Positions 55,092 through 61,046 of a DNA stretch of 64,000 bases are shown piece by piece. How positions within the stretch are numbered: position 1 is the first letter of the stretch; each line of letters starts with the position of its first letter. The stretch is from Jeongeupia sp. HS-3 (GTDB lineage: Bacteria; Pseudomonadota; Gammaproteobacteria; Burkholderiales; Chitinibacteraceae). The notes under the pieces are model-generated. The model was not told the origin of the DNA. It made no database searches and saw only the letters and a program-made list of their open reading frames with translations. The DNA lies in NCBI RefSeq assembly GCF_015140455.1, contig NZ_AP024094.1:1-64000 (forward strand). Reading direction: 5' to 3'. A program made the position numbers and the translations under genes.

Positions 55092-55793
55092 TCAGACTCC
55101 TTGGCGCGTGGTGCGCTGTTCGATGCGTTTCTCGGGGCGGGCGTTGTGCACCAGCCGGTGGACGAAGATGCCCGGCGTGTGGATCTCGTCCGGGTCGAGC
55201 TCGCCGGCTGCGACGATGATCTCGGCTTCGGCGATGGTGATCCGCCCGGCGGTGGCGACATTCGGGTTGAAATTGCGCGCGGTGCGCCGGTAGACGAGGT
55301 TGCCGGCGGTATCGGCCTTCCACGCCTTGACCAGCGACACGTCGGCGATGAGCGCGTGTTCGAGGATGTGCGGCACGCCGTCGAACTCGCGCACCTCCTT
55401 GCCCTCGGCCACCAGGGTGCCGTAGCCGGTGCGAGTAAAGAACGCCGGAATACCGGCGCCGCCGGCGCGCAGCTTCTCGGCCAGCGTGCCTTGCGGGGTG
55501 AACTCGAGCTCGAGCTCGCCGGCGAGATACTGGCGCTCGAATTCCTTGTTCTCGCCGACATAGGACGAAATCATCTTGCGAATCTGGCGGCTCTCGAGCA
55601 GCTGGCCGAGGCCGAAACCGTCGACGCCGGCGTTGTTCGAAATCGCCGTCAAGCCACGCACGCCGCTGTCACGCAGCGCAGCGATCAGCGCCTCGGGAAT
55701 GCCGCAGAGGCCGAAGCCGCCGACGGCGACGGTCTGGCCGTCTTGGACGATGTCGGCCAGCGCGCTGGCGGCATCGGGGTAGAGTTTGTTCAT
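55092..55793 (-). CDS. scoA: 3-oxoacid CoA-transferase subunit A
   Basis: The alpha subunit (233 aa). The glycine-rich [19 protein letters not shown] (about 23-41) and [19 protein letters not shown] motifs are present. AAGGAGG in front of ATG 55793 is the strongest Shine-Dalgarno of the locus; seven further codons upstream are not needed. It is separated from bdhA by 314 nt occupied by repeats, so it may have its own promoter, none of which I could identify with confidence. Confidence 0.95.
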
Positions 55794-55860
55794 GGTGTTC
55801 CTCCTTGAAGGCAAGGGAGTTTCGCGTTCGATATTTGATGTTCTGTCAGCGCAAACCGGT

Positions 55861-56107: not shown

Positions 56108-56881
56108 TTATTGGGCGGCCCAGCCGCCGTCGACATTCCACGCCGCCCCGCGCACCTGCGCCGCCGCGTCGCTGCACAGGAACAGCGTCAGTGCGCCGAG
56201 CTGCTCGGGCGTGACGAAGTCGCCCGACGGCTGCTTTTCCAGCAGCAGCGCCTTCTGTTCGGCGGCGAAGTCGCGGCCGCTCTGGCTGGCGCGGGTGTCG
56301 ATCTGCTGGCGCACCAGCGGCGTCAGCACCCAGCCCGGGCACAGCGCGTTGCAGGTGATCGCAGTATCGGCAAGTTCGAGCGCAACCGCCTTGGTCAGAC
56401 CGACCAGACCGTGCTTGGCGGCGACGTAGGCCGACTTGTTGGCCGACGCGACCAGAGCATGCACCGAGGCGATATTGACGATGCGGCCCCAGCCGCGCGC
56501 CTTCATGCCCGGGATCGCCAGTCGTGTGGTGTGGAACGCCGACGACAGGTTGATCGCGAGGATCGCGTCCCACTTTTCGGGCGGGAAATCATCAACCGGC
56601 GCCACATGCTGGATGCCGGCATTGTTGACGACGATGTCGGCGCCGCCAAATTCGGCGTCGGCAAAGCGCATCAGCGCTTCGATCTCTTCGGGCCGGCTCA
56701 TGTCGGCGCCGTGGTGGCGAACCTTGACGCCGAGGCTTTCGATCTGGCCGAGCGCCGATTCGATATCGCCGAAACCGTTCAGGACGATATTGGCGCCTTG
56801 CTGTGCCAGCGCGCGGGCGATGCCCAGACCGATGCCGCTGGTCGAGCCGGTGACGATGGCGGTTTTGCCTTTGAGCGACAT
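56108..56881 (-). CDS. bdhA: 3-hydroxybutyrate dehydrogenase
   Basis: A 257-aa short-chain dehydrogenase oxidising D-3-hydroxybutyrate to acetoacetate with NAD+. The cofactor motif is GSTSGIGLGIA (12-22), then NNAGIQHVAPVDDFP, and catalytic Ser, Tyr and Lys in NIASVHALVASANKSAYVAAKHG. The GIQHVAPV stretch is typical of BdhA. AAGGAG precedes the start, 12 nt after the permease stop. Its product is the substrate of scoAB. Confidence 0.95.
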   Translation of the reverse strand: MSLKGKTAIVTGSTSGIGLGIARALAQQGANIVLNGFGDIESALGQIESLGVKVRHHGADMSRPEEIEALMRFADAEFGGADIVVNNAGIQHVAPVDDFPPEKWDAILAINLSSAFHTTRLAIPGMKARGWGRIVNIASVHALVASANKSAYVAAKHGLVGLTKAVALELADTAITCNALCPGWVLTPLVRQQIDTRASQSGRDFAAEQKALLLEKQPSGDFVTPEQLGALTLFLCSDAAAQVRGAAWNVDGGWAAQ

Positions 56882-58284: not shown

Positions 58285-58401
58285 GAATGCTCCTCCAGTG
58301 GGTATAACGCGAGCGGCGGTGATTTTTGCCCCTGTCACCACGCGTCGCGTCGGCACGTTTCAATCAGGGGTGGCCCTGTCTTGGTGCGCCGTAACTGTAT
58401 A

Positions 58402-58417
58402 AGCATATTTCGTACCA
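58402..58417 (-). promoter_or_regulatory. Sigma54 promoter upstream of the permease-bdhA operon
   Basis: The minus strand reads TGGTACG-AAAT-ATGCT: GG (-24) and GC (-12) separated by exactly 10 nt, and most of the remaining consensus (TGGCACG-N4-TTGCA) is matched. The predicted start is near 58391, giving a leader of about 105 nt. The 379-nt region 58285-58663 also holds the operators below and nothing else recognisable. Confidence 0.7.
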
Positions 58418-58481
58418 ACTGCCGATCAACTACGAAAATGGCGGCTTTGCTGCGTTTGCGCTGGAGGACGGGGATAGCCGA

Positions 58482-58499
58482 AGTCTCCGATTGGAGACT
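58482..58499. promoter_or_regulatory. Operator-like palindrome 1
   Basis: AGTCTCC-GATT-GGAGACT, a perfect 7+4+7 inverted repeat centred about 99 nt upstream of the predicted sigma54 start. It is the best copy of three and is probably bound by the Fis-type domain of the adjacent activator. Confidence 0.65.
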
Positions 58500-58565
58500 G
58501 TTGTGACACACTGACGATCTGGAAAAGTGCAGTGATATCAGTGGCTTGGTCGGTGTCTGGACGCA

Positions 58566-58583
58566 AGTCTCCAAATCGAGACG
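58566..58583. promoter_or_regulatory. Operator-like palindrome 2
   Basis: AGTCTCC-AAAT-CGAGACG: the left arm is identical to site 1 and the right arm matches 5 of 7. Its centre is 84 nt (eight helical turns) from site 1. Confidence 0.6.
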
Positions 58584-58585
58584 AA

Positions 58586-58603
58586 AGTCTCTGCTTGGAG
58601 ATA
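58586..58603. promoter_or_regulatory. Operator-like palindrome 3
   Basis: AGTCTCT-GCTT-GGAGATA, with 6 of 7 and 5 of 7 matches. Its centre is 20 nt from site 2, so the two would be read on the same face of the helix. Confidence 0.55.
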
Positions 58604-58663: not shown

Positions 58664-60091
58664 CTATCGGTACGCGACGATGCCGTGCAGCACCATCTTC
58701 TTGTAGAAGGTCGCGCGGCCGATGCCCAGGCGCGCGGCGGCGTCGATGACCCGGCCGTTGCAGGCGTCGAGCGCATCCTGCAGCAGGCGTTTCTCGAAGC
58801 CTGCCATTGCATCGCCATAGCTTGGCGAGCCGCCAGCAGCGGGTGGCGCAACCTGGCCGGGGCGGAGCAGCGGCAACAGTTCGGCGGTGCCGAGCTGCAG
58901 GTGATCGCTGAGCATGGTCGCGCGTTCGAGCACGTTGCGCAGCTCGCGCACATTGCCGGGCCAGTCGTAGCCCTGCAGCAGCGCAATGCCGCTAGCGTCG
59001 ATCCGCCGCACCGCACCGCCTTCGGTGGCCGCGAGGTCGGCAAAGACCGTTTCGCACAGCGCGGCGATGTCCGAACTGCGCTCGCGCAGCGGCGGCAGAT
59101 TGATCGACAAGACGTTGAGCCGGTAGAAGAGGTCGGCGCGGAAGGCGCCGGTTTCGACCTGCTGCAGCAGCCGGGCCGACGTTGCGGCGATGATGCGTAC
59201 GTCCGAGCGGACCACCTGGTTCGAGCCGAGCGCCTCGAATTCCTTGTCCTGCAGCACGCGCAGCAGCTTGGCCTGCAGCGCCAAGGGCAGGTCGCCGATT
59301 TCATCCAGAAACAGCGTGCCGCCGTCGGCGAGCAAAAACTTGCCGACCCGGCTTTTGGCGCCGGTATAGGCACCGGCGGTGGCGCCGAACAGCTCGGCCT
59401 CGAGCAGCGCTTCGGGGATCGCCGCCATGTTCAGCGTCACCAGCGGCTTGTGGGCGCGGCGCGATGCGCTGTGGATCGCGTGCGCGAGCACCTCCTTGCC
59501 GGTGCCGGTTTCGCCGAGCAGCAGCACCGGCGAATCCATCGTCGCGGCGCGCTGGGCCTGGCGCTTGACCTCTTCGCTGGCCGGCGCACTGCCGACGAAA
59601 CTGTCGAACGAATACTTGGCGCGGCGCGTCTGCGCCAGCGATTCGCGCGCGGCGGCGAGTTCGTCGTTCAGCTTGCCGACCTTGGCGATCAGCGGCGACA
59701 GCGAGCGCACCTCGTCGTACAGCGCGAAACCGATCGCGCCGACGATGCGGCCGGCCTCGTCGCGCAGCGGCAGCCGGGTGACGACGAGCGAACCGTTGCG
59801 CGTCGGCATCAGGTCGAGCAGCATCGGCTTGCCGGTGCGCACCACTTCGCGCAACAGGCTGGACGGGATGACTTCTTCGACCTCGCGGCCGAGCGCGTCG
59901 GCCGGATCCTTGAAGCCGAAGCGATCGGCGTAGCGCGCGTTGATCCACACCACGCGGGTGTCGGCGTCGACGATGACCGTGCCTTCGCAGAAGGTTTCGA
60001 ACGAGCGGAACAGCGAGGCAATCGCCCAGTCTCGCGTCTGTTCGTAATCGGCGAGCCGGGCGCCGAGCGGGGCGGTGGACAGGTCGGTCAT
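58664..60091 (-). CDS. Sigma54-dependent transcriptional activator (PAS-AAA+-Fis)
   Basis: A 475-aa enhancer-binding protein. A PAS sensor domain covers about residues 31-125, the AAA+ domain about 160-400 with Walker A GETGTGKE (193-200), the sigma54-contact loop GAYTGA (240-245), Walker B GGTLFLDEI and FRADLFYRLNVL. A Fis-type helix-turn-helix is near 434-470. No response-regulator receiver domain is present, so the PAS domain presumably senses a ligand. I chose the third of three nearby ATGs (60091), which has GGAG 6 nt upstream. Likely controls the adjacent permease-bdhA(-scoAB) genes. Confidence 0.9.
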   Translation of the reverse strand: MTDLSTAPLGARLADYEQTRDWAIASLFRSFETFCEGTVIVDADTRVVWINARYADRFGFKDPADALGREVEEVIPSSLLREVVRTGKPMLLDLMPTRNGSLVVTRLPLRDEAGRIVGAIGFALYDEVRSLSPLIAKVGKLNDELAAARESLAQTRRAKYSFDSFVGSAPASEEVKRQAQRAATMDSPVLLLGETGTGKEVLAHAIHSASRRAHKPLVTLNMAAIPEALLEAELFGATAGAYTGAKSRVGKFLLADGGTLFLDEIGDLPLALQAKLLRVLQDKEFEALGSNQVVRSDVRIIAATSARLLQQVETGAFRADLFYRLNVLSINLPPLRERSSDIAALCETVFADLAATEGGAVRRIDASGIALLQGYDWPGNVRELRNVLERATMLSDHLQLGTAELLPLLRPGQVAPPAAGGSPSYGDAMAGFEKRLLQDALDACNGRVIDAAARLGIGRATFYKKMVLHGIVAYR

Positions 60092-60113
60092 CATCGGCTC
60101 CGTCATCGGACTG

Positions 60114-61046
60114 CTAGGGCTTGATCCAGCCGGCGATGCGCAAGGTGACCGCATCGGCGAGCCCGGCCTGCTGGCAATCGAGCGTTTCTACATCATCCAT
60201 GCCGCGCAGCCACGTCAACTGGCGCTTGGCGAGCTGGCGCGTCGCGGCGATGCCCTTGTCGCGCAGCGTTGCCAGATCATAGTCGCCGGCGAGATGCTCC
60301 CAAGCCTGGCGGTAGCCGACGCAGCGCATCGAAGGCAGGTCGAGCGACAGCGCGTACTTTTGTTGCAGCTTGCGCACTTCGTCGAGCAGGCCGCCTTCGA
60401 GCATCAGGTCGAAACGCAGCGCGATCCGTTCATGCAGCCAGGCGCGCTCGGCCGGCACCAGCGCGAGCTTGTGCAGCCGGTACGGCAGTGCTTCGGCGGT
60501 GGGGGCGGCGAGCAGCTCGGCCATCGGGCGGCCGGCCAGGATGCAGATTTCCAGCGCCCGGCCGACGCGCTGCGAGTCGTTCGGCGCCAGCCGTGCCGCG
60601 GTGATCGGATCGAGTACGGCAAGGCGCGCGTGCATGCCGGGCCAGCCGATCTCCAGTGCGTCGGCCTCGATCTGCAGCCGCAACGCGGCGTCGGCCTGCG
60701 GCAGATCGTGCAGCCCGTGTTGCAGCGCGTTGTAATACATCATCGTGCCGCCAACGAGTACCGGCACCTTGCCACGTGCGGTGATATCGCTCATCAGCGC
60801 CAGCGCGTCGCTGCGGAACTGCGCCGCCGAGTAGCTCTGCTCGGGGCTGATGATGTCGATCAAGTGGTGCGGCGCGCGTGCGAGTTCGTCGGCGTCTGGT
60901 TTGGCGGTGCCGACATCCATGTCGCGAAACACCAGCGCCGAATCGACCGAGATCAGTTCGACCGGCAGGCCGGCTTCGACCAGCGCGATGGCGCTGGCGG
61001 TCTTGCCCGACGCGGTCGGGCCCATCAGGAAAATCGCCGGGTTCAT
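60114..61046 (-). CDS. miaA: tRNA dimethylallyltransferase
   Basis: MiaA (310 aa) prenylates A37 of tRNAs reading UNN codons. P-loop [14 protein letters not shown] (7-20), [18 protein letters not shown] and [12 protein letters not shown] are conserved, as is the late [11 protein letters not shown]. The start overlaps the stop of the membrane-protein gene by 4 nt; mutL lies further upstream, echoing the mutL-miaA pairing of E. coli. Confidence 0.96.

Follow-up and report, generated by a model that had tools for sequence, protein, structure and literature searches.

Three conserved operator sites and a sigma54 promoter ahead of the 3-hydroxybutyrate genes of Jeongeupia sp. HS-3 point to a probable HbcR-type switch

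The locus considered here lies in a 64-kb stretch of the Jeongeupia sp. HS-3 genome (the window, that is, the whole of the DNA analysed). It comprises genes for a putative permease, the dehydrogenase BdhA and a CoA-transferase subunit, together with the gene of a regulator and the sites between them (Table 1). A preliminary description of this DNA had placed a PAS-AAA+-Fis activator gene next upstream on the same strand, and the domain matches bear this out. The AAA+ sigma54-interaction domain was recognized by PF00158 (Sigma54_activat, E 9.5e-65), and the sensor and DNA-binding domains by PF08448 (PAS) and PF02954 (Fis HTH_8), both above cut-off. The protein also contains the motifs GETGTGKE, GAYTGA (a variant of GAFTGA) and LFLDE, and by its domain composition it belongs to the bacterial sigma54 enhancer-binding proteins. 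An RpoN gene is present in the genome (TIGR02395, 443.6 bits with a cut-off of 277.35). The activator gene adjoins the genes of the permease and the 3-hydroxybutyrate dehydrogenase, as is expected of HbcR-type regulators.

Table 1. Genes and predicted regulatory sites of the locus (coordinates in the window)
Feature	Position	Strand	Basis or remark
HbcR-like activator gene, PAS-AAA+-Fis	58664-60154	-	Domain matches; true start may be an internal ATG
Distal pair, outer site, core ATCTCCAAGCAGAGAC	58602-58587	-	Palindrome match; pair member in 57 promoters
Distal pair, inner site, core GTCTCGATTTGGAGAC	58582-58567	-	Pair spacing 19-23 in 57 promoters
Promoter-proximal (third) site, 16-bp core GTCTCCAATCGGAGAC	58498-58483	-	Equivalent site 49-106 bp away from the -24 G across the 57 promoters
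Predicted sigma54 -24/-12 element TGGTACG-N4-ATGCT, TGGTACGAAATATGCT	58417-58402	-	GG-N10-GC; position and type kept in relatives
Putative 3-hydroxybutyrate permease, 463 aa	56893-58284	-	Open reading frame; role inferred from the operon
bdhA, 3-hydroxybutyrate dehydrogenase	56108-56881	-	NCBIfam TIGR01963 and NF009093 above cut-off
3-oxoacid CoA-transferase subunit A	55092-55814	-	TIGR02429 above cut-off; next on this strand, about 290 bp after bdhA

The permease gave no Pfam match even at E 10, no NCBIfam match and no PDB match better than E 0.2, and an AlphaFold prediction made with 8 sequences had a mean pLDDT of 35 and yielded no usable structure. Its closest relative found in a named genome is that of Jeongeupia naejangsanensis (96% identical), and identity ranged from 74 to 96% across the best 80 of 314 relatives in named genomes.

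The palindromes and the sigma54 element are located between the stop of the activator gene and the start of the permease gene (58284). Both had been proposed in the preliminary description, and both stood up to closer inspection. The promoter with GG-N10-GC spacing had the highest score in the window, narrowly and on a scale with ad hoc weights (20.5 vs 20.0 for the next match), and it is conserved in relatives. The three copies of AGTCTCC-N4-GGAGACT were found as described, the near site being perfect and the other two differing at 2 and 3 of 14 positions. Counting the C of GC as -12 puts the predicted +1 at 58391; the palindrome centres then fall at about -99.5, -183.5 and -203.5, with spacings of 84 and 20, and the coordinates confirm the earlier values of about -99, -183 and -203.

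With up to three mismatches to this 18-mer the window contains four matches with 1.5 expected, and 5 of 100 shuffled sequences reach four, so that the number of matches alone is unremarkable. Three of the four are clustered inside 122 bp. In the whole 3.4 Mb genome only two sites have up to two mismatches, both of them at this locus, while the reversed control gave none. Comparison of the sites allowed the operator to be refined: its informative core is GTCTC-N6-GAGAC, the sixth base of the half-site being weakly constrained, and the three sites are the only ones in the 64-kb window that score 9-10 of 10 against this core.

Among the nearer relatives of the window's host, a regulator relative at E <=1e-100 was detected in 14 of 61 genomes (the window's own and 60 relatives), and the permease at E <=1e-50 in eight of 39 genomes searched, all eight of which also carry the regulator. 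In every one of the eight permease promoters a close pair of sites (19-20 bp apart) is followed after 84-87 bp by a third site, and a sigma54 element is present as well. In six of these genomes the regulator and the permease are encoded on different contigs or far apart, and the layout is nevertheless kept at the permease; therefore the sites accompany the target operon in regulator-bearing genomes and do not reflect mere adjacency. No such sites were seen beside the regulator genes of the same six genomes (L005-L010), where the permease gene does not come next, nor near the weaker regulator relatives of genomes G048 and G056 (49-50% identity).

We then searched named genomes with an alignment of the permease, keeping the best 80 of the 314 relatives and calling a locus linked if a regulator more than 50% identical was encoded within 600 bp. 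Among these best 80 there were 45 linked loci (7 codirectional and 38 divergent) and 35 unlinked ones. With up to two mismatches, two or more sites were present at all 45 linked loci of this set (129 sites vs 5 in shuffles), while ten of its 35 unlinked loci had at least one site and four at least two (18 sites vs 3.6 in shuffles). The four multi-site loci hold 12 of the 18 sites of the unlinked set. In a motif-free count of every 5-bp palindrome with spacers of 0-12, GTCTC-N6-GAGAC ranked highest among the linked loci (28 of 45 vs 2 of 35 unlinked loci among the best 80 of 314).

The 45 linked loci, the eight permease loci of the window's family and four loci of another genus, g8 (see below), make up a set of 57 promoters from Neisseriales and Burkholderiales. 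The full layout (a close pair and a third site) was revealed in all 57 promoters, in four of the 35 unlinked loci and in none of 1140 shuffled sequences; here the contrasts carry the weight rather than the scores, the position matrix having been trained on the sites that it then scored, and the counts are not independent, the loci being related by descent. A sigma54 score of at least 18.9 was reached by 56 of the 57 promoters, by the same four unlinked loci and by 4 of the 1140 shuffles; the only promoter with a merely weak sigma54 match is that of L065. The four unlinked loci with the layout (L045, L046, L056 and L057) share their 300 upstream bp, without a difference, with L025, L027, L030 and L031, and the genomes of these carry the regulator elsewhere. 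The scan for operators beside orthologues, suggested beforehand in the preliminary description, thus found them at 8/8 close permease loci and at 45/45 linked loci in named genomes (best 80 of 314). Two Cupriavidus loci, L115 and L123, have a second sigma54-activator match (286 residues, 43-44% identical) located beyond the HbcR-like regulator.

At 38 Burkholderiales loci the regulator and permease genes diverge from a shared intergenic region that holds the sites, an arrangement in which HbcR operators could also control the regulator's own gene. In the window, however, they are situated downstream of the regulator gene and not at its start, and we consider this additional role unlikely.

A sample of the class (369 genomes) contained the permease at E <=1e-60 in nine genomes, the window's included, and eight loci from seven of the eight others (all but G260) were inspected. 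In seven of these loci, from six genomes without a regulator match, no cluster of sites and no sigma54 match was found ahead of the permease gene, and the same is true of G363, whose regulator and permease show 57% and 45% identity, respectively. The regulator search of this sample scored the top four candidates per genome; eight distant regulators (L125-L132, 42-57% identity) have no cluster of sites nearby and adjoin other genes, several of them coding for transporters.

A different situation was revealed in genus g8. A regulator 63-64% identical to that of the window is present in four of the five genomes searched, and the gene downstream, in one case past another open reading frame, encodes an ABC ATPase of the branched-chain type. 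Ahead of it stand a sigma54 element and the same set of three sites. The content of the operon is taken from one case, L040 (1612-10978, minus strand), where the first ATPase is followed by a second ATPase, a binding protein and two membrane proteins, and then by a 3-hydroxybutyrate-oligomer hydrolase (PF10605, E 7e-295), a dehydrogenase that shares 70% identity with BdhA of the window, and an alpha/beta hydrolase. The presence of these 3-hydroxybutyrate genes under the same sites links the regulator to 3-hydroxybutyrate by a route that does not involve the permease.

The third large group is family f185. We take it to be Pseudomonadaceae on the strength of OprF: the match in its member G222 (E 1.4e-77) far surpasses every other in the sample, the runner-up reaching 1.6e-17. 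A regulator relative at E <=1e-95 was found in 61 of its 119 genomes (65 matches), and the best 30 of the 65 matches were examined; these are 55-59% identical to the window's regulator. In a midpoint-rooted FastTree phylogeny of 99 regulator sequences the latter groups with the f185 regulators of the same operon, apart from the distant relatives. A hand count of GTCTC-N6-GAGAC sites with up to two mismatches between regulator and promoter gave one or more in 26 of the best 30 of 65 loci and two or more in 23; the four loci without such sites belong to genus g321. When the match was relaxed to T or C in the fourth position of the half-site and to C or A in the fifth, all of the best 30 of 65 had a site. 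In 29 of these best 30 of 65 the nearest site is separated from the -24 G by 59-61 or 70-74 bp, and the thirtieth, L205, has a one-mismatch site at that distance. The members of the distal pair are mostly spaced by 18 bp, and its inner site lies anywhere from about -91 to -255. Within the fetched flank the permease gene follows in 22 of the best 30 of 65, and a bdhA-like gene in L184. In L191, L195, L211 and L213 the distal pair and the third site are separated by what we take, by eye, to be a REP-like sequence, and the third site is still 70-72 bp from the -24 G.

We next compared the recognition helix of the regulators with the sequence of their sites. The counts cover loci with an exact-core site near the regulator, five repeated loci being omitted (L022, L039-L042), and include a few sites outside the layout, e.g., two in L210 and the fourth in L193. 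Under regulators of the Y-K-x type (64 loci), sites with zero, one and two half-sites of the TCCC type numbered 131, 42 and 1, the single double-C site being that of L199. Under Y-R-x regulators (14 loci) the corresponding numbers were 8, 20 and 11, and all 11 double-C sites came from genus g321 (four genomes: L188, L190, L198 and L203). The recognition helix of g321 is LGLSRSTLYRRL, with K-to-R and G-to-S changes relative to the ordinary one, and its sites read TCCC...GGGA instead of TCTC...GAGA; a twelfth site has one core mismatch. The layout in g321 is unmoved: the pair is 17-19 bp apart and the third site follows 68 bp on, as compared with 18 and 69 in L196, L200 and L204. The sister of g321 in the tree, L193 (78% identical), has the helix LGLGRSTLYRKM, with only the first K-to-R change, and its three layout sites are all hybrid, TCCC...GAGA. 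Three ordinary sites are kept in L048 (Y-K-R), and in nine Paraburkholderia loci with Y-R-R, apparently of independent origin, 8 sites are ordinary and 16 hybrid, none being of the double-C kind. The changed residues presumably correspond to the DNA-contacting positions of Fis.

From these comparisons we consider it fairly likely that HbcR and its operators exhibit a natural stepwise switch of DNA specificity. The passage from Y-K-K to Y-R-K, a K-to-R change at the first lysine of the recognition helix, would be accompanied by hybrid TCCC...GAGA sites, and the further K-to-R change at the second lysine together with the G-to-S change earlier in the helix by TCCC...GGGA at all three sites, their positions relative to one another and to the sigma54 promoter being kept. 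It can also be supposed, although we find this doubtful, that the operators of g321 changed by drift of a tolerated site. Hybrid sites are indeed tolerated under the ordinary helix (42 of 174), where one double-C site occurs as well; Y-R-R by itself goes without double-C sites in the nine Paraburkholderia loci, and the full change is one evolutionary event in one lineage of four genomes. Against drift, both halves are changed in 11 of 11 exact-core sites of g321 vs 1 of 174 under the ordinary helix, and the sister species with one helix change is hybrid at all three positions. If the stepwise switch is accepted, the ordinary, hybrid and switched protein-DNA pairs would form a natural set for studying how the specificity of a Fis-type helix changes at three sites.

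Palindromes alone do not name their protein, and they might belong to a different regulator, e.g., a repressor, co-inherited with the operon. This is very improbable in our opinion. The layout is missing in 31 of the 35 permease loci without an adjacent regulator, and the other four have the regulator elsewhere; the palindromes accompany the regulator to a different transporter operon in g8, persisting where the ABC operon replaces the permease; their distances upstream of -24 are those typical of such activators; and their sequence shifts in step with the recognition helix in one lineage. On these grounds a repressor or unrelated regulator was set aside as their owner, and the pairing of the operators with the adjacent regulator, which the preliminary description had put forward, is supported by the first, second and last of these observations.

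The distances of the third site from the promoter cluster. In the 57 promoters it is separated from the -24 G by 49, 58-62, 71-74, 81-84, 93-95 or 106 bp, and the periodicity of its 17 distinct values is strongest at 11-11.5 bp (R 0.75-0.79) and weaker at 10.5 bp (R 0.59, nominal p 0.003). The inner site of the pair shows the strongest periodicity at 10.5 bp, with a weaker signal than that of the third site (R 0.46, nominal p 0.003); the distances are not independent values. Shifts by one turn occur within single genera, from -71 to -60 in g3 and from -61 to -72 in g321. These spacings amount to a natural experiment on the distances that matter for contact between enhancer and promoter, in which the distal pair moves far, while shifts of the near site are mostly close to one turn of the helix.

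We also looked for IHF-like sites between the third site and -24. None was found in the window's promoter (the best match has 3 mismatches) or in the four g8 promoters. Among 15 Neisseriales promoters five have a perfect site (all from Aquitalea) and seven a site with at most one mismatch. In Burkholderiales there is no perfect site and 4 of 38 promoters have one with at most one mismatch (2.6% in shuffles), while in the presumed Pseudomonadaceae seven are perfect and 16 of 21 have at most one mismatch (11% in shuffles), these 21 being the loci of the 30 whose segment could be cut out. A possible FNR/ANR-type box, TTGAT-N4-CTCAA, was noticed by eye between the pair and the third site in L029-L031 (g3, Silvimonas-type).

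A search for further targets in 12 regulator-bearing genomes, with the pattern GTCTN8AGAC followed by TGGYRC within 48-78 bp, gave 30 matches vs 49 in the reversed control. Only the matches at the known promoters are convincing in our view. In the window's genome it gave 3 matches vs 3, and the known target alone stands out. This suggests a narrow regulon, although degenerate sites would escape the pattern.

NtrC/NifA-type promoters combine palindromic upstream sites, a -24/-12 promoter and an activator with a GAFTGA-type loop. The window has all three, and differs from them in the operator sequence and in the layout of three sites, a distal pair and a single near one. The gene order of the locus would correspond to that of PA2003-PA2005. 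Control of (R)-3-hydroxybutyrate catabolism by HbcR (PA2005) and RpoN is known from Pseudomonas aeruginosa (Lundgren et al., 2015, as referred to in passages of PMC13390443, PMC10482368, PMC8694187 and PMC8657755). According to passages of PMC10482368, HbcR can be activated by (R)-3-hydroxybutyrate, and overexpression of hbcR with (R)-3-hydroxybutyrate rescues motility in P. fluorescens. Like HbcR, the window's regulator would be a PAS-containing sigma54 activator for the use of 3-hydroxybutyrate, and it is probably orthologous to PA2005, judging from the gene neighbourhood and the literature. It differs from the HbcR-type systems of the presumed Pseudomonadaceae in its Jeongeupia host, in a pair spacing of 20 vs mostly 18 and in having no IHF-like site. 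Our literature search, whose scope did not extend to Lundgren et al. (2015), found no statement of the operator GTCTC-N6-GAGAC.

Thus, we consider it very probable that the region controls a 3-hydroxybutyrate utilization operon and that the switch is a sigma54 activator related, and probably orthologous, to HbcR. The sequences themselves show the sites, how they are conserved, that they depend on the presence of the regulator and that they co-vary with its helix in one lineage; binding, oligomer assembly, the inducer and the direction of control we infer as follows. RpoN-polymerase would sit in a closed state on the -24/-12 element, with dimers of the regulator bound through their Fis-type helix-turn-helix to the close pair (about -183/-203) and to the single palindrome (about -99). 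3-Hydroxybutyrate or a product of it would be sensed, presumably at the PAS domain, whereupon the AAA+ modules would assemble, the GAYTGA loop would open the promoter, and the permease and the dehydrogenase would be made. The close pair may seed the oligomer, and the third site, shifting by about one helical turn at a time, may hold it facing the polymerase.

Judged by its sequence, the promoter is a well-conserved member of the HbcR-type, sigma54-dependent 3-hydroxybutyrate switch already described in P. aeruginosa. What the present comparison would add is the operator core, the grammar of three sites across three large groups, the exchange of the transporter and a probable switch of specificity. 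Together these define, with good support, how operators and promoter are arranged at the targets of a widespread class of 3-hydroxybutyrate regulators, and they make it possible to predict such targets in Neisseriales, in Burkholderiales and probably also in Pseudomonadaceae.
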